Shown: piece by piece, positions 3,045 to 14,576 of the stretch
Numbering within the stretch: position 1 is the stretch's first letter
How the letters are laid out: each line of letters opens with the position of its first letter
Assembly (NCBI RefSeq): GCF_001617365.1
Contig: NZ_LVJR01000014.1
Location: 1 to 64,000 of the forward strand
Direction of reading: 5' to 3'
Source of the DNA: Rhodanobacter sp. FW104-R8
Lineage (GTDB): Bacteria > Pseudomonadota > Gammaproteobacteria > Xanthomonadales > Rhodanobacteraceae
DNA length: 64,000 nt
Program-made: the position numbers and the translations under genes
Notes under the pieces: generated by a model
What the model was told of the DNA's origin: nothing
Databases searched by the model: none
What the model saw: only the letters and a program-made list of their open reading frames with translations

Positions 3045-3929
3045 TCAGGCCGCGGCCGCGATGTGCGGTGCGTGGCCGGCGGCGACCACGCGCTCGAAGA
3101 ACGCCGCCGAGCGGTCGATCAGGGTGCGCCGCTCGCGGTCGATGGTGATCATGTGGTAGCTGTCCTCGAGCAGCAGCAGCTCGGTCGGCGCGGCGACATG
3201 GCGCAGCACCAGTTCGGCATTCTTCGGGCTGGCCACGTCGTCGTCGCTGGCGTGGGCGACCAGGCACGGCGCGGTCACCTGCGGCAGCTGGCTGCGTACC
3301 GCGGCGGCGAGGCTGTACATCTCGGCCAGCGAGTACCACGGGTTGCCGGGCAGGCCGGCGGCGGCGCTGTCGCCGCCGAGCATGGCGGTGCTGACCTGCG
3401 CGCGCAGGCGCTCGTCGCGGATGCCGTAGGGCGGCTGCTCCATGAAGCTGCGGCCGCGGCCGATGCCGAGCTTCTTCAGCAACGGCAGCAGGAACGACAG
3501 CCGCGCCATCCGCGGAATGCTCCAGCCGTCGTAGCGGAAGGTGGCGCCGTACACGCCGACGCCGGCGACCTGCCCGGGGCGGTCGGCGGCCAGCTTCAGC
3601 GCCAGCAGCGCGCCCATCGACAGGCCGCCGACGAACAGGTGGTCGACCTTTTCGAGCAGCGCGTCGGCGGCCTGCTCCACGCTGGCGTACCAGTCGCGCC
3701 AGCCGGTGGCGAGCAGGTCCTCGACGTTGCCGCAGTGGCCGGCCAGCTGCATGCCGTGCACGGTGAAGCCGGCGCGGTTGAGGCCCTTGCCAAGCAGCTT
3801 CATTTCCATCGGCGTGCCGGTGAGGCCGTGGATCAGCAGCACGCCACTGCGGCCACCCTCGAAGAAGAAGTCAGTCTGCTGGATCACGCGTTTGCCTTGC
3901 GGGGATGGGTCGCGGCGATTTTCATGCAT
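3045..3929 (-). CDS. Alpha/beta hydrolase, Est30-like carboxylesterase
   Basis: A cytoplasmic serine hydrolase of 294 residues. It has the oxyanion-hole segment LLIHGLTGTP (31-40), the nucleophile elbow GLSMGA (Ser104), a candidate acid in HASDDDVAS (Asp229-231) and the catalytic histidine in DSYHMITID (His259). The W-R-D-W block and the S-Y-H-M-I-T-I-D ending are hallmarks of the Bacillus/Geobacillus Est30-type carboxylesterases. No signal peptide is seen. It sits 25 bp after the exporter adaptor gene and 2 bp before the first SMR gene, in the same direction, so it is probably co-transcribed. In that setting it may deacylate a lipid intermediate; that is inference. Confidence 0.85.
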   Translation of the reverse strand: MHENRRDPSPQGKRVIQQTDFFFEGGRSGVLLIHGLTGTPMEMKLLGKGLNRAGFTVHGMQLAGHCGNVEDLLATGWRDWYASVEQAADALLEKVDHLFVGGLSMGALLALKLAADRPGQVAGVGVYGATFRYDGWSIPRMARLSFLLPLLKKLGIGRGRSFMEQPPYGIRDERLRAQVSTAMLGGDSAAAGLPGNPWYSLAEMYSLAAAVRSQLPQVTAPCLVAHASDDDVASPKNAELVLRHVAAPTELLLLEDSYHMITIDRERRTLIDRSAAFFERVVAAGHAPHIAAAA

Positions 3930-3954
3930 GGCATGGTCGCAGCCGGCGGTTTCC

Positions 3955-4935
3955 TCAGTCTTTCGCGGGCGGCGCGGCGGGCGGCGCCTTGCCGAAACGC
4001 ACCATCACGCGCTGGCCGATGCGCAGGCCCCGGGTTTGACCGGGGTCGGGCTGGTCGAACGCCAGCACGCATTCCACCGTGCGGGCATTGGCGCGCACCT
4101 GCGGGTCGTTCTCCAGCGTGGCCGGGCCGTACACCTTGCCGACGCGCAGCACGTGCGCGCTCCAGGACGCGCCGGCGCGCCCACTGTCGGCGCTCACTTC
4201 CGCCGGCATGCCGGGCTGGATCGCGCCGACGAAGCTGTCGTTGAGTTCCGCGCGCACGATCCGCGGCTTCTGCGGCAGCAGGGTGAACACGGCGCCGGAG
4301 GCGGACGACACGCTGGCGCCGGGCTGCGCCGACACGCGCACCACCTCGGCGTCGAACGGGGCCAGCAGGCTGCGCTGCTTCAGCTCGTAGCGGGCCTCGT
4401 CCAGCTTCTGGCTGGCCATGTCCAGCGCCGCGCGGGCCGCCTGCTGCTCCGCGTCGAGTTGCGCGGCGGCCTCGCCGGCGTCGTCGGCGCTCTGGCCGTC
4501 GCCGGCACCGGCAGCCACGGCCGCGGCCAGCCGCTGCGCGCGCTGCTTCGCCGCCGCCTGCTTGATGCCGAGCAGTTTCAGCTGCGCCTGCGCCTGCTCC
4601 CGCTGCGCTTGCGCGGCATCCACCGCCAGCCGGGCCGGCTCGTCGTCCAGCGCGGCCAGCAGCTGGCCCTGCCGGACATGGTCGCCCTCGTGCACCGCGA
4701 CCCTGGCGAGCACGCCCTCGCGCGGCATCGACAGGCTCAGCAACCCGCCTTCGACGTCGATGCGGCCGCGCGCCACCGCGGCATAGGCGGCGACCGGGCC
4801 GGCAGCGGGACCGGCCGGCGCGGCCGGCCGTGAACAGCCCGCGGCCAGCCAGGTGCTGCACAGCGCCAGCGAGCCGAGCCGTAGCCACCGGGAGACGGCA
4901 GAGCGTTGCGATGGATGGGACAGGAGCGGTTTCAT
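3955..4935 (-). CDS. Periplasmic adaptor (HlyD/DevB-type membrane fusion lipoprotein)
   Basis: A 326-residue membrane-fusion protein linking an inner-membrane ABC permease to an outer-membrane channel. It begins MKPLLSHPSQ and has a lipoprotein signal ending in LAAGC (Cys at about 34), so it is probably lipid-anchored. Then come a biotinyl-lipoyl half (REGVLARVAVHEGDHVRQGQ), an Ala/Gln-rich coiled-coil hairpin (about residues 105-195), the second lipoyl half (LLAPFDAEVVRVSAQPG) and a beta-barrel domain. The ATG at 4935 overlaps the stop of the ATPase gene (ATGA), marking it as the last subunit of the tripartite exporter. Such adaptors serve DevBCA/MacAB-like systems that export lipids or peptides. 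Confidence 0.85.
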   Translation of the reverse strand: MKPLLSHPSQRSAVSRWLRLGSLALCSTWLAAGCSRPAAPAGPAAGPVAAYAAVARGRIDVEGGLLSLSMPREGVLARVAVHEGDHVRQGQLLAALDDEPARLAVDAAQAQREQAQAQLKLLGIKQAAAKQRAQRLAAAVAAGAGDGQSADDAGEAAAQLDAEQQAARAALDMASQKLDEARYELKQRSLLAPFDAEVVRVSAQPGASVSSASGAVFTLLPQKPRIVRAELNDSFVGAIQPGMPAEVSADSGRAGASWSAHVLRVGKVYGPATLENDPQVRANARTVECVLAFDQPDPGQTRGLRIGQRVMVRFGKAPPAAPPAKD

Positions 4936-5684
4936 GAAGGATTTCCGTGGCTGTCGGTGGCCGGCGCCTGGCTGCGCCGGTCGCTGAGTATGCGGCCGTC
5001 CTCCATCGCCAGCACGCGGTCGGCGTGGATGACCAGGCGCGGGTCGTGGCTGACGCACAGCACCGTGGTGCCGTGGTTGCGCGCGATGCGATGCAGGATG
5101 TCGATGATGACCTGGCCGTTGGCGGCGTCCAGCGCGCTGGTCGGCTCGTCGGCGAACAGCAGCTCCGGCCGCTTGGCCAGTGCGCGGGCGATCGCCACGC
5201 GCTGCTTCTCGCCGCCGGACAATTCGGACGGGCGCAGCCGCATGCGGTGCGCCAGGCCGACCTCCTCCAGCGATTGCTGCGCGCGGCAGCGCGCCTCCTC
5301 GCGCGACAGGCCCATGTGGTTCAGCGGCAGCTCGACCTGTTCGAACGCGGAGAGCGCGGGGAACAGGTTGAAGCCCTGGAACACGAAGCCGGTGTGCTGC
5401 AGGCGGAACCGCTCCAGCGCGCGCAGGTCGAGCTGGCCCAGTTCGCTGCCGAGCGCGCAGACGCGGCCGCCGTCGACCTTCTGCAGGCCGCTGAGGACCG
5501 CCAGCAGGGTGCTCTTGCCGCAGCCGGACGGGCCGGAGATCAGGGTTAGTTCGCCGGCCTCGATGTCCAGCGTGAGACCGTCCAGCACCTGCGTGCGCTG
5601 TTCGCCGGACACGAAGGCCTTGCTGACGTGTTCGGCACGCAGCGACGGCGGGCGGGCGGATTCAATGACGGTGGCGGCCTGCAT
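4932..5684 (-). CDS. ABC transporter ATP-binding protein (DevA/MacB-NBD type)
   Basis: A 250-residue nucleotide-binding subunit that powers the adjacent permease. It shows Walker A GPSGCGKST (51-59), the Q-loop FVFQGFNLFP (100-109), the signature LSGGEKQR (155-162), Walker B LLFADEPTSALD (176-187) and the switch histidine in VSHDPR (about 213). The N-F-P after the Q-loop and the GGEKQR signature are typical of the MacB/LolD/DevA group. It starts at 5684, six bases after the permease stop, and overlaps the adaptor start by four bases. Part of a six-gene sensor-plus-exporter operon. Confidence 0.92.
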   Translation of the reverse strand: MQAATVIESARPPSLRAEHVSKAFVSGEQRTQVLDGLTLDIEAGELTLISGPSGCGKSTLLAVLSGLQKVDGGRVCALGSELGQLDLRALERFRLQHTGFVFQGFNLFPALSAFEQVELPLNHMGLSREEARCRAQQSLEEVGLAHRMRLRPSELSGGEKQRVAIARALAKRPELLFADEPTSALDAANGQVIIDILHRIARNHGTTVLCVSHDPRLVIHADRVLAMEDGRILSDRRSQAPATDSHGNPS

Positions 5685-5689
5685 CGCGG

Positions 5690-6820
5690 TTACCTCAGCA
5701 AGGTGGCGGGGTCGGCGCGGCGCAGGCTGCGCATCGCGGCCAGGCCGGAGACGGCGGCCAGGCCCATCACCAGGATGATGCAGGCCAGCGCCGCCGTCAC
5801 GTTCAGCACCACCGGCACATCCTGGCTGCGCGCCAGCAGCATCAGCGCGATGCCGAGCACGCTGGCGCCGAGCAGCCCCAGCGCGCCGACCCAGAACGCC
5901 TGCTCCAGCACCACCTTGCGCAGGGCGCCCACGCCCACGCCGAGCGCATTGAGCGTGGCGTACTCGCGCACCGAGCCATTGACCGCGGCGATCAGGGTCT
6001 GGCTGGTGATCGCTGCGCCGACCAGGAACACGATGCCGGCCAGGAACAGCACGCCGGCGCCGGCGCCGGTGTCGAATAGCCAGTAGCGCACCGAGATGTT
6101 GGCGAAATCGCGGGCGCTCCATGCGGTGTACGGGCCAAAGGCGGTATCGCCGCGCAGGCGCGCGGCCACCGCTTCGGCCTGGGCCGGATCGCGCAGCTTC
6201 GCGACCAGGTAGGTCGGGCCATCGTCGCTCGGGTCGCTGTCCAGATGACGCGCGGTATCCAGCGAGCACAGCACGTTGACGCCGCCCAGCGCGCGCAGGC
6301 CGGTGCTGATGCCGACCACGCGCACCTGCCGGCCGTTGATGGTGGCGGTCTGGCCGATATCCACGCCGAGCTGGTCCATGGCGGAGCGGTCGACCACGAT
6401 CGCGTCCGGCTCGGCCAGCCGCGCCCGCAGCGCGGGCGACAGCACCCTGGAATACATCAGGCCGTCGGCGCGGGTGTCGATGCCGGAGACGAACACCGAC
6501 ACGCCGCCGGTTTCATGCGCCCCGCGCCAGTCGCCGTCGACCCACAGGTACGGTTCGACCCGTTCCACGGCCGGATCCATCAGGACGCGCGACTGCAGGT
6601 CGGCATTGATCGCGCGGCCCAGGCTCACGCTTTGCGTGCCGGGAAAACCCACCCACACGTCGGCCGACGAGCCGGTGATGTACAGGCTGGTGCTGCCGAA
6701 GATGCCCAGCACCAGCGCGATCTGCAGCAGCTGCAGCAGGCCGGCGAAGCCGACCGCCAGGATCGCCGGCAGGAAGCGCCGCCATTCGTAGACCAGGGTC
6801 TTGCGCGCGAGGGCAACCAT
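5690..6820 (-). CDS. ABC transporter permease, DevC/FtsX-like
   Basis: A 376-residue permease with four apparent transmembrane segments in the FtsX/MacB layout: one N-terminal (about 17-45), a large periplasmic domain (about 46-250), then three C-terminal segments (about 255-280, 305-330, 340-365). The segment just after TM1, SADVWVGFPGTQSVSLGR, closely resembles DevC-type permeases (A-D-I-W-V-x-x-P-G-T-x-S), used by cyanobacterial glycolipid exporters. Its ATG shares one base with the stop of the outer-membrane factor gene (TGATG), indicating translational coupling. The substrate is unknown; the DevC resemblance and neighbours suggest an envelope lipid or glycolipid. Confidence 0.85.
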   Translation of the reverse strand: MVALARKTLVYEWRRFLPAILAVGFAGLLQLLQIALVLGIFGSTSLYITGSSADVWVGFPGTQSVSLGRAINADLQSRVLMDPAVERVEPYLWVDGDWRGAHETGGVSVFVSGIDTRADGLMYSRVLSPALRARLAEPDAIVVDRSAMDQLGVDIGQTATINGRQVRVVGISTGLRALGGVNVLCSLDTARHLDSDPSDDGPTYLVAKLRDPAQAEAVAARLRGDTAFGPYTAWSARDFANISVRYWLFDTGAGAGVLFLAGIVFLVGAAITSQTLIAAVNGSVREYATLNALGVGVGALRKVVLEQAFWVGALGLLGASVLGIALMLLARSQDVPVVLNVTAALACIILVMGLAAVSGLAAMRSLRRADPATLLR

Positions 6821-8271
6821 CAGCGGTCCGCCTGTCCCGCGGCGACCGGCGCGGGCGATGCATCCGGCGCCGGCGCGCCCGGCCGCGGCGCGCCGCCGAG
6901 CGCCTTGAACAGCGCCACGTAGGCCAGGCTGTGGCTGGCGCGCGCGTCGGCCAGTTCCAGCGCAGCCTGGTCCGCGGCGATCTGGCTCTCGACGCGATCG
7001 AGCGGGCTGCCCAGGCGCAGCCCGACGCGTTTCTGCACGGTCTGGTCGACGCGCTGCAGCGCCTGCCATGCGAGCTTGCTGTGCTGCTCGCGCTGCTCTT
7101 GCTGCTGCAGGCTGCCGAGCGCGGTCTCCACCTCGGCGACGCCCTGCAGCACGGCCTGCCGGTAGGCCAGCACGCTGGCCTTCAGCTCGTGGTCCCTGGC
7201 GTGCTTGGCCGCCACCCGCATGCCCCAGTCGAACAGCGGGATGTTGATCGCCGGGCCCACCGACGCGATGCCGTTGGGGGTGGTGGAAAAACGGTGGTTG
7301 TTGTTGATGTCGGTGGCCCAGACCATCGACGCGCCTAGGTCGATGCTGGGATACATATCGGCATGGGCCAACGCCAGCTCGCCGGCGGCGCGCAGCACGT
7401 CCGCCTCGGCGTGCGCGATCTCGGGCCGCGTGCGCAGCAGGTCGGCCGGGGTGCCGTCGATCCGCCAGCTGCCCACTTCGGGGGGCGAACCAGCCTGCAA
7501 CCAGGCCGGATCGGGCTGGTTGCGGCCGAGCAGCACGGCCAGCCGTTGCGCGTTGGCGTCGATCGCCTGACGCGGCGCTGCCAACGCGGCCTGAGCCTGC
7601 GCGAAGGCGGCCTGGGCCTGGTCCACCGCGCCCGGCGAGGCCAGTTGCAGGCGCTCGCGCGTCTGCACCAGTTCCCATTCGTGCTGGCGGGCCTGGCTCA
7701 CCTGCAGCAGCAGCTGTTCCTGCTGCTGGGCGGTGCGCAGGCCGATCCACTCGCGCACCACCTCGGCGACCAGGCTGACCCGCGCGGCCCGCAGATCGGC
7801 GAGGCTGGCATCCAGTTCGCCCTGCGACAGGCGCCGGGTGCCTTCGGCGCGGCCGAACAGCCCCAGTTCCCAGGTGGCGTCGAAGCCGGTGACGAAGTAC
7901 GAGGCGCTGGCGTCGGGGTCGATCGCATCGTTGGTGCGCGCGACCAGGCTGGGCAGGTAGCGTGCGCCGGAATGCTTGCGCAGGATCCGCGCCGCGCGCA
8001 TGCGCTCGACGGCCTGTGCCACGTCGAGGTTGTCGGCCAGCGCGCGATCGACCAGCGCATCGAGCCCCGGATCAGCGAAGGCGTGCCACCAGCCGTGCAG
8101 GTCGGTCGGCGGGGCCGGCTGCGAGGCCACCGCGTGCTGCCACTGCGCCGGCACCGGCGGCGCCAGCTTCGGCAGCGGTGCGGCGCAGCCGGCCAGCCCG
8201 CAGAGCAGCGCACCGAGCAGGCCGGTGCGCAAGCGGTTGCCGGAGATGGCCCTGCTCGATCGGGGTGACAC
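6820..8271 (-). CDS. Outer-membrane efflux lipoprotein (NodT/OprM family)
   Basis: The TolC-type channel of the tripartite exporter, with two OEP repeats: a first half around WWHAFADPGLDALVDRALAD and a second half around TRPEIAHAEADVLRAAGELA. The signal sequence ends in CGLAGC, so the mature protein is an N-terminally lipidated channel of OprM type. I place the start at the GTG at 8271 (483 aa; SPRSSRAISG then the signal). An ATG at 8409 overlaps the kinase stop (ATGA) and would add 46 residues of unconvincing sequence. The 8272-8405 stretch reads instead like a spacer with an inverted repeat, so the later start is preferred, but the alternative is open. Confidence 0.82.
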   Translation of the reverse strand: MSPRSSRAISGNRLRTGLLGALLCGLAGCAAPLPKLAPPVPAQWQHAVASQPAPPTDLHGWWHAFADPGLDALVDRALADNLDVAQAVERMRAARILRKHSGARYLPSLVARTNDAIDPDASASYFVTGFDATWELGLFGRAEGTRRLSQGELDASLADLRAARVSLVAEVVREWIGLRTAQQQEQLLLQVSQARQHEWELVQTRERLQLASPGAVDQAQAAFAQAQAALAAPRQAIDANAQRLAVLLGRNQPDPAWLQAGSPPEVGSWRIDGTPADLLRTRPEIAHAEADVLRAAGELALAHADMYPSIDLGASMVWATDINNNHRFSTTPNGIASVGPAINIPLFDWGMRVAAKHARDHELKASVLAYRQAVLQGVAEVETALGSLQQQEQREQHSKLAWQALQRVDQTVQKRVGLRLGSPLDRVESQIAADQAALELADARASHSLAYVALFKALGGAPRPGAPAPDASPAPVAAGQADR

Positions 8272-8342
8272 GTCGGACGGATTCCATGACGACGCCTCGC
8301 GGAAGGCGTGTGTGTCGGTAGGTGGTGGGGATACTCGCGCGT

Positions 8343-8380
8343 ATTGTCGTCGTGAAATCTTACTTCCTCCTGACGACGAT
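8343..8380 (-). promoter_or_regulatory. Inverted repeat between sensor kinase and exporter genes
   Basis: ATTGTCGTC and GACGACGAT face each other across a 20-bp spacer in a locally AT-richer stretch upstream of the exporter's outer-membrane gene. Eight of nine positions pair. It could be an operator for the adjacent response regulator, an mRNA hairpin, or chance. No confident -10/-35 pair is seen on the minus strand. Confidence 0.35.
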
Positions 8381-8405
8381 GGGGTGGGGGTCGCGCGGGA
8401 CGTGG

Positions 8406-9815
8406 TCATGATGGAGAGGCCAAGGCGGGCGGCGGGGGTGGAAAGTGTACGTCCACACGCAGGCCGCGTTCCTGTCCGTTTCGAAAGACGACCTCGGCAT
8501 GATGGCGTCCGGCGATGCGCCGGACAATGGCCAGGCCGAGTCCGCTGCCCTGCTCCTGGCTGCCGCCGACACGGAAAAAACGCTCGCTCAGCCGCGGCAG
8601 CAGCTCCGTCGGCACGCCCGGCCCGTTGTCCTCCACGCTGAGGGTGGCGCCGCCGCCCTCCCGCGCCTGCAGCCGCACCGTGATGACGCTGCCGCGACCG
8701 GCATAGCGCACGGCGTTGTCGATCAGGTTGTCCAGCAGGTCCTGCAGGCCGGCCGCGTCGCCCAGGATGTACAGCGGCTCCTGGCGGCCCTCGTAGCCGA
8801 GGTCGACGCCGGCGCGGATCGCCTCGTACACGCGCTGCGACACCGCCTCGGGGATCAGCCTGGCGAGGTCGAGCAGCCGGTAATCGCCGGTATCCGCCGG
8901 AGCCGCCTGCGCACGGGTCAGCGCGAGCAGCTGCGAGGAGGTACGCGCGGCGCGCCGGGTCAGCCGCTGGATGTGGTCGAAAGCGTCGGACAGCGTCTCC
9001 GGCCGCGGATCGGCGAGCGCACGGTCGACGTGCAGGCTCAGCCCCGCCAGCGGGGTGCGCAGCTGGTGCGCGGCGTCGGCGATGAAGCGGTCGTGCAGGG
9101 CCAGCATGCCGCGCAGGCGGCCGAACAGCGCGTCGATGGTGCGGGTCAGCGGCTGGATCTCCTGCGGCACGTCGGGACCGTCGATCGGCGCCAGTTCGTC
9201 CGGGCGGGTGGCCAGCCGCGCGGTCAGCGGATCGAGCACGCGCAACCCGCGGCTGACCCCGAACCAGACCAGCGACAGTACGCAGGCGATCAGGAAGGTC
9301 TGCATGACCACCGCCAGCAGCAGGATCTCGCGGGCCTGCTCGTGGCGGTCGCGCAAGGTCTCGGCGACGACGATGGTGAGGCTGTCGCCGGGGTCGTCCG
9401 ACGGCGTCACCCGGACATCCGCGGCACGCAGGGTGTGCCCGTCCAGGCGGGTGTCGTACAGGGTGGGCGTGGCGTCGGGCGCCGACGCGGCCACCGGTCG
9501 CGCCAGCCGGCCGTCGCCGGCCAGCAGGCCGTGCCGGGAACTGCTCACGCTGAAATAGCTGCGGCCGACCGGATCGTATTCGAGCAGGAAGCGCGCCTGC
9601 GGCGTCAGCCGGTCGGCTTGCGGGTCCTTGCCAAGCATCTTGGCCAGCGTCAGCGCGTCGCCGCCGAGGTCGCGGTCGTGCACCCGGTTGGCGTAGGTCA
9701 GCGCCACGCCATAGCTCAGCAGCGCATCCAGCAGCAGCAGCACCGCCATCGGGATCAGCAGGAACACCAGCAGCCGGCGGCGCAGGCTGGGGCGCGATGG
9801 CGACGACCGCTTCAT
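8406..9815 (-). CDS. Two-component sensor histidine kinase (QseC/TctE-like)
   Basis: A 469-residue membrane kinase. TM1 lies at about 14-38, a periplasmic sensor domain at about 39-163, and TM2 at about 164-187. Then comes a HAMP-like linker, the phospho-acceptor H-box FIADAAHQLRTPLAGL (His250), the N-box LLDNLIDNAVRYA, G1 VEDNGPGVP, the F-box ERFFRVGG and G2 GSGLGLAIV. The Q in A-A-H-Q-L-R-T-P-L is the variant seen in QseC/TctE/PmrB-type kinases. Its ATG overlaps the regulator's stop (ATGA), so the pair is coupled. It is positioned to control the exporter just downstream; the signal is unknown. Confidence 0.92.
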   Translation of the reverse strand: MKRSSPSRPSLRRRLLVFLLIPMAVLLLLDALLSYGVALTYANRVHDRDLGGDALTLAKMLGKDPQADRLTPQARFLLEYDPVGRSYFSVSSSRHGLLAGDGRLARPVAASAPDATPTLYDTRLDGHTLRAADVRVTPSDDPGDSLTIVVAETLRDRHEQAREILLLAVVMQTFLIACVLSLVWFGVSRGLRVLDPLTARLATRPDELAPIDGPDVPQEIQPLTRTIDALFGRLRGMLALHDRFIADAAHQLRTPLAGLSLHVDRALADPRPETLSDAFDHIQRLTRRAARTSSQLLALTRAQAAPADTGDYRLLDLARLIPEAVSQRVYEAIRAGVDLGYEGRQEPLYILGDAAGLQDLLDNLIDNAVRYAGRGSVITVRLQAREGGGATLSVEDNGPGVPTELLPRLSERFFRVGGSQEQGSGLGLAIVRRIAGRHHAEVVFRNGQERGLRVDVHFPPPPPALASPS

Positions 9816-10501
9816 GCCGACTCGCTTCCGCCTTCGGCAAGCTCTTCCAACAGGTAGCCCAGTCCGCGGATCGTGCGCACGCCGGTGCCGCTGCCGTCCA
9901 GCTTGCGGCGCAGGCGATGGATGGCGATGTCCAGCCCGTTGTCGGTCAGCTCCTGGTCCCAGTCGCACAGCGCCTCGACCAGTTGCGCGCGGCTGGTGAC
10001 CCGGTCGGCGCGCAGCGCCAGCGCCTCCAGCAGGCCGAACTCGCGCGCGGTGAGCTCCAGCGGCGCCTGGTCGACCCAGGCACGATGTCCGGGCAGGTCG
10101 AGCCGCAGCCGGCCGAGCTGCAGTTCCGGCTTGCCCTGGCTGCTGGCCCGCCGCAACAGCGCGCGCACGCGCGCCTCGAACTCCGCCAGCTCGAACGGCT
10201 TGACCAGGTAGTCGTCGGCGCCCAGGTCGAGCACGCGGACACGATCGGGCAGGCCGTCGCGCGCCGTGATCACCAGCACCGGCAGGCCGGTGCCGCGGTT
10301 GCGCAGGCGCTGCAGCACCTCGCTGCCGTCGAGCACGGGCAGGCCGAGGTCCAGCACCAGCAGGTCGTAGCCGTGGTCGCGCAGGGCCGCATCGGCGAGG
10401 CTGCCGTTGACCACGTGGTCCACCGCATGGCCGCCATGCCGCAGCGAGGCACGGATGCCTTCGGCAATGGACATGTCGTCCTCGGCCAGCAGAATGCGCA
10501 T
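9812..10501 (-). CDS. OmpR/PhoB-family response regulator (QseB/PmrA/TctD-like)
   Basis: A 229-residue DNA-binding response regulator. The receiver domain has the acidic pair Asp8-Asp9, the phospho-acceptor Asp51 in LLVLDLGLP, and Lys101 in YLVKPF. The C-terminal winged helix (about 127-220) carries LTAREFGLLEALA and the recognition region ELTDNGLDIAIHRLRRKL with the terminal TIRGLGYLL. The start is the ATG at 10501 (MRILLAEDD), the canonical start for the family. It is the first gene of the kinase-exporter array and probably regulates it; the QseB/PmrA kinship parallels regulators of lipid A modification in other Proteobacteria. Confidence 0.92.
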   Translation of the reverse strand: MRILLAEDDMSIAEGIRASLRHGGHAVDHVVNGSLADAALRDHGYDLLVLDLGLPVLDGSEVLQRLRNRGTGLPVLVITARDGLPDRVRVLDLGADDYLVKPFELAEFEARVRALLRRASSQGKPELQLGRLRLDLPGHRAWVDQAPLELTAREFGLLEALALRADRVTSRAQLVEALCDWDQELTDNGLDIAIHRLRRKLDGSGTGVRTIRGLGYLLEELAEGGSESA

Positions 10502-10667
10502 GGAAACTCCGGGTTGCACGCGAATGTGCCGCATCATGGACCACCGGGTCGATGCTGTCTCGTGCGGCTCGGCGGCGTGGATGGGGGCGCGGCGGACCGG
10601 TTTCCAGTCTTCGGCCGCGTCCATTCAGACAACGCCGGCGGCCCGCAGTTCGCGGCGCGGCGCCCGC

Positions 10668-11390
10668 TCAGTCGGCCACGCGCACCTGCAAGGCGCTGAA
10701 CGCGCCGCTGCGGGCCAGCGCGGTGATGGTATGCGGGCCGGGCTGCGGCAAGGTCAGGCTCCGTGCCGCCGCGCCGTCGCTGCTGCCCTGCAGGCGGCCG
10801 TCCAACAGCCACTGCACCTCGCCCTGGACGCCCAGGGCCTTCAGCGTCACGCGCAACGGATGGTCCGCCGCTTCGCCGCCGCGGAACACCGGCGCGATCA
10901 CGCAGACGTCGTGACGTTCCCGCTCCTTCGTCACCGGGATCTCGAAGGTGGCGCCGGCCTTCGCCTCGATAGTTCTTCGCGTAGAGCATGATGATCCGAT
11001 TTCGCCAGCAACACGCCGGGGCCATCGTGCGGCGGCGTCACGCCGACCTTCATGGTGTCGCCGGGCGTGGTAGCGCGCCTTGTCCAGCGCCAGCTTCACC
11101 TTGTCCGGGCGCGCCGCCTTGCCCAGGTTCTCGTCGTCCCGGCCGTAGCCGGCGATGAACGGGGACACCGCGGTGAGTTTCATGGACGGGGCATACACCT
11201 CGACCCGGCAGCTGCCCCACTGCACCGGGCATTCCACCTGGGCCGACTTGCCGGCGGCCGCGTCGACGCCCTTTTCGTCGATCAGCTGCAGGCGCTGGTT
11301 CGCGTTCGGCGGCCAGCCGCCGTTGCGCTCGTGCTACCGGTAGAAGTGGCGCGGTTCACGTTGCAGGCGGGCATCGGGCGCGCCGGTTGC
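10668..11390 (-). pseudogene. Relic of a yfhM-pbpC operon (alpha-2-macroglobulin fragment joined to a PBP1C tail)
   Basis: The minus strand retains pieces of the C-terminal region of a YfhM-type bacterial alpha-2-macroglobulin: HERNGGW near 11330-11312, LTAVSPFIAGYGRDDEN, ARPDKVKLALDKARYHA and IEAKAGATFEIPV. The pieces are broken by an in-frame TAG at 11336-11334 and by frame changes between about 11085 and 10970; the missing stretch GDTMKVGVTPPHDGPGVLL is in another frame. At about 10862 the sequence passes from FRGGEAAD directly into KALGVQGEVQWLLDG and PGPHTITALARSGAFSAL, which resemble the C-terminal domain of penicillin-binding protein 1C. yfhM and pbpC are adjacent in E. coli, so this looks like an internal deletion of that operon followed by decay. 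Confidence 0.7.
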
Positions 11391-11419: not shown

Positions 11420-12289
11420 TCACTCCGGCGTCTGCCGGCCCAGCCAGTCGCCCAGCTGCATCAGCACCTGGCCGCGCCCCGGTTCGGCCTCGTTGAACAG
11501 CTCGTGGTACAGCGTCGAGAAGAAACGCGTGGTCAGCCGGCCCGTCGCGGCCGCCCGGCGGGCAAACTCGCGGCTGCCGGACGGGTCCACCAGCTCGTCG
11601 CTGTCCGCCACCAGCAGCAGGGTCGGTTGCGCCAGGCCGGCGGCGTCGGCGATGCACGTGGCGCCGGCACGGAAGATGAAATCGGCCAGCCGCGGCGTGA
11701 TCCAGCCGTGCTGCAGCCGGTCGCCGCGGTAGTCGATCACCACCTGCCGGTCGTGCGACAGCTTGTCGACGGCCAGTCCGTTGCGCAGCGGCAGGCTCGG
11801 CGCGACGCGATTCAGCAGCCGCGCCAGGGCGATCATCCGCGGCGACTCCCAGCTGCGCAGCGCCGGCGAGGACAGCACCAGCGCCGGCGGCGCCACGCGG
11901 CCATCCAGCGCCGCGCGCAGGGCGACCAGCCCGCCCATGCTGTGGCCGAGCAGCAGCGGCGGATGCGGCAGGCCGTTGGCGTAGTCGTGGTAGGCGGTGG
12001 CGAGGTCTTCCAGCAGGTCGTCGCCGTGGCGCAGGCGGCCGCGGCGGCCCGGGGTCTGGCCATGGCCGCGCTGGTCGTAGCCGCGCACGGCATAGCCGCG
12101 CTGGTTGAACCACCGCGCCAGGCGCCGGTAGCGGCCGCTGTGTTCGCCCAGCCCGTGCACCAACAGCACCGCGCCGCGCGCCTGCGGCAGCGGCCAGTCG
12201 CGCAGGAACAGCCGCTGGCCGTCGGCCAGGTCGAGCCAGGACGTGGGTTCGGTGCCGTCCGCAGGACGGTTCTGCAGTGCCGCGTGCAT
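11420..12289 (-). CDS. Alpha/beta hydrolase, lysophospholipase / monoacylglycerol lipase-like
   Basis: A 289-residue PldB/MGL-type serine hydrolase acting on lysophospholipids or monoacylglycerols. It has the oxyanion segment LLVHGLGEHSGRY, the YDQRGHGQTPGRRG block typical of the family, the nucleophile elbow LGHSMGG, an acid in VADSDELVDP and a catalytic histidine in LYHELFNE. No signal peptide is seen, so it is presumably cytoplasmic. It starts at the ATG at 12289; the preceding 96 bp hold a strong hairpin that probably terminates the upstream protease transcript. The upstream relic and this gene are not obviously linked in function. Confidence 0.85.
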   Translation of the reverse strand: MHAALQNRPADGTEPTSWLDLADGQRLFLRDWPLPQARGAVLLVHGLGEHSGRYRRLARWFNQRGYAVRGYDQRGHGQTPGRRGRLRHGDDLLEDLATAYHDYANGLPHPPLLLGHSMGGLVALRAALDGRVAPPALVLSSPALRSWESPRMIALARLLNRVAPSLPLRNGLAVDKLSHDRQVVIDYRGDRLQHGWITPRLADFIFRAGATCIADAAGLAQPTLLLVADSDELVDPSGSREFARRAAATGRLTTRFFSTLYHELFNEAEPGRGQVLMQLGDWLGRQTPE

Positions 12290-12385: not shown

Positions 12386-14395
12386 TCAGTGTTCCGTGAC
12401 CCGCATGTCCTTCGTCAGCAGGTCGAGCTTGCCCTTCATGTCGGCCTGGGGCTGGGTGCCCGCGGTGCCGTAGAAGGCGGTGTACAGCACCGTGGACGAA
12501 CTGCCGCCCGCGGCGGCCGGGGCGACCACGGCGTTGATCATCATCAGGTCGTTCTCGTAGCGCGCCACGGCATTGTAGGGATACTGCCGCTCCGCCAGCT
12601 TGCGCCAGCGGCTGCTCAGGTCGTCGTCCAGCCCCGGCGGCGGCGCGACGTGGCGCTGGACGTTGACGTTGTTGTGGTCGTCGGAGGCCGAGTCCTTCCA
12701 GACGTTCACGTCACCCACGTCCCACACCGGCTTGCCGCCGTCCAGGAAGAAGCGGAAGCCCAGCCACAGCAGGTTGTCCGGCTTGACCTCCTGCAGGGTG
12801 GACGGATAGGAGAACGCCACCCGCGGCGAGCTGTAGCTGAAGCGGCGGTCGTACTCGGCGTCGATGCGGATGCCCTTCAGCGTGACCGGCTGCAGCGCCG
12901 GGTTGCCGAGGAAATCCTTCCACTGCGCGAGGGTGCCCTGGTAGGTGACGTAGACGAAGCTGCTGAGCTCGTCCAGGTCCAGCATGGTGTCGTGCTCGTG
13001 GGCGGGCGGCGTGAAGCGCACCAGCATCACGCTGCCGTCCGGCACCGGCAGCGAATACGCCACCACCAGCGCGTTGGCGTAGGGCAGCGGCCACACGGCG
13101 ACGTGCCAGGGCCGCTGCCAGCGGTCGAGGCGGGTCGACTCGCGCACGGGCTTGCCCAGCGAGGTGAGCTTGACCTTTTCGCCGGCGACCGCGCGATGGA
13201 ACATGCCGGTCCGTGCCAGCAGGTCCATGCGCGTCTTCGCGTCACCGTAGAACGTCGCCGCGGCCATCCCGTCGGGCCGGCGCAGGCGCACCAGCCCGTT
13301 GCGCGCGACTGCGCCGGTGGCCACGTAGCCGTTGCCGTCCAGCGCGAAATGCTGCGCCTGCTCGCCGACGCGCCGCCATTCGCCGTCGCTGCCGCGCACG
13401 ATCAGCGAGGGAAAGCCATTCAGTTGCGTCTGCTGGTGCAGCAGGCGCGCCGAACCCGCGCCATTCGGAAACAGGTTGGCGGACTCCTTGGCGAGCAGCG
13501 CCTTCAGCTGCGCATCGCTGTTGGCGTCGATGCGCGACTGGAATTCGCGATAAAAGTCGTCCAGGCCGACCGGCAACGCGAACTGCGCCTTGAACTGGCT
13601 GTTCTCGACCGTGTCGAACAGGTCGATCTGGTAGGCGAGGCGCGAATCCATCACGGCCCGGCCGGACGGTGCGTCCAGCACTTCGCGGATCGGCAGCGCG
13701 TAGTTGAGGTTCTCGTTGGCCGACTTCATCAGCACCACGCCGATCAGCTTGCCGTCCTTGTCCAGCAGCGGCCCGCCGCTGTTGCCGGGCGAGGCGGCGG
13801 CGGAGAAGCGCATCCACTTCCAGGCGCCATTCAGCTGCTCCGGCGTGTCGGAGGTGTACAGGCCGTCGCGGATCACCACGCCGGTGCCCAGCGCGTTGCC
13901 CACCGCGTAGACCACCTGGTTGAGCGCCGGGCTGGCGTCGACCTCCAGCGCGGCGTCGCCCGCCGGCGGCTGCGCCAGCGTGAACACCACGAAATCCTTG
14001 CCCAGCGAGAACTTCTCGATCCTGCCGATCGGGTACACGCGGCCGGCGGCGTCGCGCAGCTCGGGCACCCCCCACAGGCTGCCCGTGCCGGCCAGCAGCA
14101 CGTGGGCGGCGGTGACATAGCGGTTGTGGCCGATCGCGAACGCCGTGCCGATGGAATAATACTTGTCGGTACGCTCCTGGTAGGGCAGCAGGTCCAGCGG
14201 CAGCGGCCGCTCGTAGCTCAGCGGATCGCTGGTCGGCTTGGCCTGCACCACTTCGAAGGTGGCCGCCTGGATCTTCGGCAGCATCGCGGGATCGAGGCTG
14301 GCCGCGCGTGCCGCCGGCACTCCCGCCAGGCCCAGGCCGCACAGCAACATCAGCACGCCGAGCCGGCGGATCGCTCCCTCATACCATGTACGCAT
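12386..14395 (-). CDS. Secreted trypsin-like serine protease
   Basis: A 669-residue protein with an N-terminal signal peptide (hydrophobic core about residues 11-26, cleavage near AARA-A). The protease domain follows, with catalytic His98 (YVTAAHVLL), Asp134 (LGKDFVVFTL) and Ser206 (SPGNSGGPLL), the HtrA/trypsin-like order. The remaining roughly 430 residues are unrecognised and contain no obvious PDZ domain, so this is not a standard DegP. The start at the ATG at 14395 is supported by a Shine-Dalgarno-like AAAGGA about six bases upstream. The long C-terminal region may bind substrate or envelope. Probably periplasmic or surface-exposed; substrate unknown. Confidence 0.75.
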   Translation of the reverse strand: MRTWYEGAIRRLGVLMLLCGLGLAGVPAARAASLDPAMLPKIQAATFEVVQAKPTSDPLSYERPLPLDLLPYQERTDKYYSIGTAFAIGHNRYVTAAHVLLAGTGSLWGVPELRDAAGRVYPIGRIEKFSLGKDFVVFTLAQPPAGDAALEVDASPALNQVVYAVGNALGTGVVIRDGLYTSDTPEQLNGAWKWMRFSAAASPGNSGGPLLDKDGKLIGVVLMKSANENLNYALPIREVLDAPSGRAVMDSRLAYQIDLFDTVENSQFKAQFALPVGLDDFYREFQSRIDANSDAQLKALLAKESANLFPNGAGSARLLHQQTQLNGFPSLIVRGSDGEWRRVGEQAQHFALDGNGYVATGAVARNGLVRLRRPDGMAAATFYGDAKTRMDLLARTGMFHRAVAGEKVKLTSLGKPVRESTRLDRWQRPWHVAVWPLPYANALVVAYSLPVPDGSVMLVRFTPPAHEHDTMLDLDELSSFVYVTYQGTLAQWKDFLGNPALQPVTLKGIRIDAEYDRRFSYSSPRVAFSYPSTLQEVKPDNLLWLGFRFFLDGGKPVWDVGDVNVWKDSASDDHNNVNVQRHVAPPPGLDDDLSSRWRKLAERQYPYNAVARYENDLMMINAVVAPAAAGGSSSTVLYTAFYGTAGTQPQADMKGKLDLLTKDMRVTEH

Positions 14396-14576
14396 AGGTT
14401 TCCTTTGCCCCGGGGCGGCCGCCCACGGACTCCCCTCGGCATCCTCGCGGGCAGCGGCCGGCATGCATCTTGGCATGGCCGCACGCCGCTTGCATGGCGG
14501 GCGCGGGCCGCGGCGCGGGCATGGACGGGACACCCGCCATACCGGCCGCTGGCGCGACGGACACCGGCGCTTCCGG

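Follow-up and report, generated by a model that had tools for sequence, protein, structure and literature searches.

The window, a stretch of 64,000 nucleotides from Rhodanobacter sp. FW104-R8, contains on its minus strand 0.7 kb without an intact gene between a hydrolase gene and a response regulator gene. With a probability of about 95 %, this interval is a dead remnant of two genes, yfhM and pbpC, shaped by at least two deletions and by free decay thereafter, thus a case of ordinary gene loss. The features of the locus are, from the hydrolase side:

11420-12289, minus strand: alpha/beta hydrolase (Hydrolase_4; Pfam PF12146, E 1.4e-61), intact upstream flank
11361-11369, minus strand: joint of deletion 1, from the hydrolase-yfhM spacer to yfhM codon ~672, with a ~9-base overlap alike in both parents
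10861-11369, minus strand: yfhM relic, residues 672-840 of an intact 1665-residue protein, bMG6 and the first part of the bait-region domain
11334-11336, minus strand: in-frame TAG in the yfhM relic, the one TAG counted within the match
10861-10884, minus strand: joint of deletion 2, from yfhM codon ~840 to pbpC codon ~725, with a ~24-base imperfect overlap
10668-10862, minus strand: pbpC relic, BiPBP_C domain, comprising the final 64 codons with the stop
9812-10501, minus strand: OmpR-type response regulator (Pfam Response_reg and Trans_reg_C), intact downstream flank; the start at 10501 is our choice, the ORF was listed from 10624

The larger relic shares 87 % DNA identity over 509 columns with the yfhM gene at the same locus of genome G021, and 75-87 % with the nine genus relatives that carry the gene. 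These nine were found among 24 other genus members searched, with E values from 3.4e-93 to 7.6e-175, far beyond chance; in other genera of the same order (G036, G025) the relic was matched at 70-73 %. The protein of G021 comprises a bMG6 domain (633-746), a bait-region domain (762-904), an A2M domain (979-1056), a bMG10 domain (1516-1647) and the motif CIEQ. Placed on this protein, the relic spans most of bMG6 and runs into the first part of the bait-region domain, while the A2M domain, the CIEQ motif and bMG10 all belong to the portion absent from the window. A complete member of the family has MG domains, bait region and A2M in one reading frame; of this, only residues 672-840 are present, with a stop and frame changes. 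The thioester motif CxEQ of YfhM proteins is missing in the relic, and Pfam called no MG domain in the 189-residue frame of the relic. The smaller relic matched BiPBP_C (PF06832) at 10683-10862, covering domain positions 31-88 of 90, with an E value of 3.9e-8 above the cut-off of the family (2.7e-8 in a second search), the sole match to this domain in the genome. It is 70-79 % identical on the DNA level to intact pbpC ends over 166-198 columns in 11 of 12 relatives, in the twelfth, G043, over just 68 columns. The transglycosylase and transpeptidase domains of intact PBP1C lie before residue 549 of 794, and both are gone from the relic. On these matches, the identity of the relic as yfhM and pbpC is secure. 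The initial annotation had proposed a YfhM-type macroglobulin followed by PBP1C on the minus strand, with a switch between the families near 10862, an internal TAG at 11336 and frame changes, and in all these points it agrees with the domain match and the alignments to intact relatives. It was wrong in calling the yfhM part a C-terminal region, and of its extent (10668-11390) the end at 10668 stood, while the relic starts only at ~11369.

In the relatives, intact yfhM is preceded by the very hydrolase gene that adjoins the relic. Of 25 relative loci, 21 contained it; most of these loci had been picked by a match that included the hydrolase end. The best matches of the hydrolase in named genomes were mostly to Rhodanobacter, then to Dyella, and for this reason the genome of the window is placed in the Rhodanobacter group. 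Directly ahead of the hydrolase, and close to the vanished protease trap, lies a frame of 715 residues (12386-14533) in which a trypsin-like peptidase domain was recognised. A link between this protease gene and the pair was considered and dropped, as the protease matches among the 25 loci occurred both with the pair (e.g., L028, L034) and without it (e.g., L030, L031).

Comparison with the intact locus of G021 resolved the relic into three overlapping BLAST pieces: 11600-11361 with hydrolase and spacer, 11369-10861 with yfhM, and 10884-10676 with the pbpC end, the last running from 10884 to 10628 in the comparison with G006. Measured on G021, from which the lost ancestor may have differed, the first deletion comprises ~2.1 kb with the spacer and yfhM up to codon 671 (G021 locus ~3227 to 5294), the second ~4.8 kb with yfhM from codon ~841 and pbpC up to codon ~725 (~5799 to 10612). 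By this alignment at least two deletions are needed to derive the relic from an intact pair. The loss by an internal deletion, as initially proposed, describes the joining of the yfhM middle to the pbpC end; the 5' part of yfhM was removed by a second one. At both joints the parent sequences overlap in a short, imperfect manner over ~9 and ~24 aligned bases, which would fit deletion between microhomologies. The ancestor would have had the order hydrolase, yfhM (~1665 codons), pbpC (~790 codons) and response regulator. One deletion would have taken the spacer and the yfhM 5' part including the start, another would have brought the central yfhM codons next to the last ones of pbpC, and slippage or end-joining at the short similar sequences may have produced both joints. 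The remnant, deprived of start region, thioester, transglycosylase and transpeptidase, would then have gathered changes in its yfhM part regardless of codon position; the function lost with it was presumably that of a periplasmic protease trap and a cell-wall synthase. We infer both the mechanism and the order of these events, and several orders are possible, including a point mutation that preceded both deletions.

Codon positions were evaluated for the yfhM part only (window 10885-11369). Against four close intact genes, the changes private to the window were distributed 15:17:8 over codon positions 1:2:3 (152:154:118 comparable columns), compatible with every column changing at the same rate (chi-square p 0.51), whereas the intact genes of G021 and G009 differ from each other by 5:6:21. 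When the comparison was made with all 13 intact genes, 13:15:1 changes remained private to the window; pooled private changes of the intact genes amounted to 14 at positions 1 and 2 versus 25 at position 3. Fisher tests gave p values of 1.1e-4 for the pairwise and 1.3e-7 for the pooled contrast, which are to be taken as guides, the sites being few and the genes related. According to these counts, the yfhM remnant evolves neutrally and has lost its codon-position constraint.

This pattern also bears on the idea of a living small chimera, in which part of bMG6 and the bait domain would be fused to BiPBP_C. On the minus strand, 189 codons starting at a GTG (221 if counted between stops) are open between the TAG and the pbpC stop and cross both relics, and the yfhM part (11369-10885) has against G021 three one-base extras and no missing base, so that the extras together preserve the frame. 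Little weight was given to this frame, because frames of this kind abound here: 10 kb are overlapped by 60 ORFs of at least 60 aa. The start region of yfhM is gone, one stretch of the 189-codon translation is no longer like the yfhM protein of G021, and the private changes are spread evenly over the codon positions of the yfhM part; a functional chimera is thus extremely improbable. Scarcely more probable is an error of assembly, by which an intact yfhM-pbpC pair would have been collapsed. The genome is a draft of 124 contigs, and the pair of G002 demonstrates how contig ends may cut pbpC in two. The relic, however, lies inside its contig, further pieces of yfhM or pbpC elsewhere in the genome were absent among the matches listed, and the yfhM remnant deviates by 13 % from its closest intact copy, is changed at all codon positions, and has a stop and differences in length.

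A decayed remnant of a formerly intact pair finds its counterpart in the relatives. Type I yfhM was present, in full or split by contigs, in 22 of the 45 genomes of the genus, in 20 of them as one uninterrupted match, and type I pbpC occurred in the same 22 genomes among the matches listed. In 20 of 38 scanned loci (the scan left out those of G047 and G054) yfhM follows directly behind the hydrolase and pbpC comes next; in G002 the latter runs off the contig. Three of the 38 loci (G006, G044, G049) present the order hydrolase, yfhM, pbpC and response regulator, with a regulator of 87-91 % identity, the exact frame from which the window lost its middle. Intact genes, for which the initial annotation had suggested to look in related strains at this position, are thus retained. 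In the rpoB and gyrB tree (45 rows, 8 without rpoB) the genome of the window falls within a clade rich in intact pairs. The same three genomes are, among 12 relatives, the closest to the window in their pbpC ends (77-79 %) and regulator regions (84-87 % on the DNA level). At 9600-10862 of the window, over the end of pbpC and the regulator/kinase region behind it, these three are the nearest, while neither rpoB and gyrB nor the yfhM part single them out; a mosaic locus or an ancestral regulator may be the reason.

Within the genome of the window no A2M domain was detected at E values up to 1, in a search whose controls were positive in 6 of 14 known genomes. The type II and type III macroglobulins of the relatives found no match either, in searches without a positive control, for which an empty answer is uninformative alone. 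Three genes with a transglycosylase domain were found, with frames of 904, 786 and 340 codons, which we take by their length to be of the PBP1A, PBP1B and MtgA types; two of them resemble PBP1C at just 31 % and 37 % over part of the PBP1C length, among the matches listed. Relatives thus keep an intact counterpart where the relic lies, and no other intact copy was found in the relic's own genome, as is characteristic for a unitary pseudogene. The loss of the pair in this lineage, as first proposed from the window, is supported because the relatives are intact at the locus, no other copy was found and the yfhM remnant changes neutrally.

The window is not the only locus with such a remnant. In G024 (L038:3010-3210) the hydrolase spacer is joined directly to roughly the final 25 codons of pbpC, and in G048 (L111:600-1600), where just the inner part of the hydrolase matches, yfhM residues ~23-129 are joined to pbpC from residue ~671. 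These relics are like that of the window in that the end of pbpC was left near the hydrolase and most of the pair was lost, but they differ in their joints. G048, placed by part of gyrB only, is sister to G003 with a support of 0.99. Since this sister keeps an intact pair, G048 lost its own independently of the genome of the window. A TGA in the pbpC match of G003 was considered as a sign of early decay and discarded, since it is the own stop of this pbpC, read through by the alignment. As judged from the joints and the tree, the pair was deleted at least twice at this locus, in different ways. For the window and G024, which is near to it in the tree, one or two loss events are possible. A single founding deletion, older than the lineage of the window, would explain why the left joints of both fall in the spacer no more than ~10 bases apart, and the two as a clade were not rejected by rpoB and gyrB (p-AU 0.4; 17 of the 45 rows). 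The right joints differ, however, yfhM was not found in the G024 locus, and the free tree does not join the two, with weak support; we consider a common deletion unlikely. A motif of 10 bases in the spacer, at the left joint that both have in common, was tried as an enriched element and rejected, with two occurrences in the window versus 1.87 expected. The end of pbpC is kept in all three relics, for which the control region of the next gene, just behind it, would be a simple reason.

Across the genus, 33 of 45 genomes were seen to carry a macroglobulin-PBP1C pair and 12 to lack it (for PBP1C among the matches listed), where seven of the 45 stay short of the mark set for completeness or contamination and three type I pairs are split by contigs. 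The 12 are the three relic carriers (G000, G024, G048) and nine genomes with neither gene among the matches listed; the locus scan, in which alone the small relic of G024 was visible, took in six of these nine (G005, G010, G011, G014, G019, G023; the contig of G010 ends at the hydrolase) and not G016, G022 and G056. A single partner alone was seen in none of the 45 genomes, on the PBP1C side among the matches listed, and on the macroglobulin side with a yfhM query that missed the macroglobulin of G012, so that a lone one of this type could escape the count. Besides type I, a distant macroglobulin (type II; frames of ~1800-2110 codons, 24-27 % identical) occurred in 12 genomes, and the same 12 carry a PBP1C of 38-39 % identity among the matches listed. 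The type II partners share a contig in 11 of the 12 and are on different contigs in G059; in the two loci read, L209 (G020) and L211 (G017), they are direct neighbours, with C-S-E-Q or C-T-E-Q in the macroglobulin. Only these two genomes, G017 and G020, combine types I and II, among the matches listed. A third type in G012 (L210) has a macroglobulin frame of 1465 codons without a CxEQ match beside a PBP1C with all three domains. Tentatively, and at somewhat less than even odds, the pair may be regarded as an all-or-none, exchangeable module with three non-orthologous versions, of which a genome holds one, rarely two, or none, and whose proteins act as one unit. If so, the partners would be useless singly, and the pair dispensable in some habitats.

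A published report of this relic was not found among the papers listed in searches on yfhM/pbpC, on bacterial alpha-2-macroglobulin/PBP1C and on Rhodanobacter macroglobulins. In itself the relic is an ordinary pseudogene, and the wider interest lies in the comparative pattern alone: the genus contains genomes that possess the pair and others that lack it, among them three relic carriers, a natural collection for asking what bacterial macroglobulins do. According to passages in two publications, yfhM is often in an operon with the gene of PBP1C, the pairing in E. coli included, and for the E. coli pair it is proposed that the trap binds proteases entering the periplasm while PBP1C repairs the wall (PMC4498604, PMC3328433). 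Strict pairing and joint loss in the genus agree with the proposal that YfhM and PBP1C work together, with the caution that adjacent genes tend to be lost together even without a common function. On that view, the lineage of the window would have lost a trap and repair unit. Intact relatives share the gene order of yfhM-pbpC in E. coli and have, as seen in G021, MG domains, bait region, A2M, bMG10 and CIEQ. The window, in contrast to E. coli, keeps fragments only, and neither gene could make its protein.
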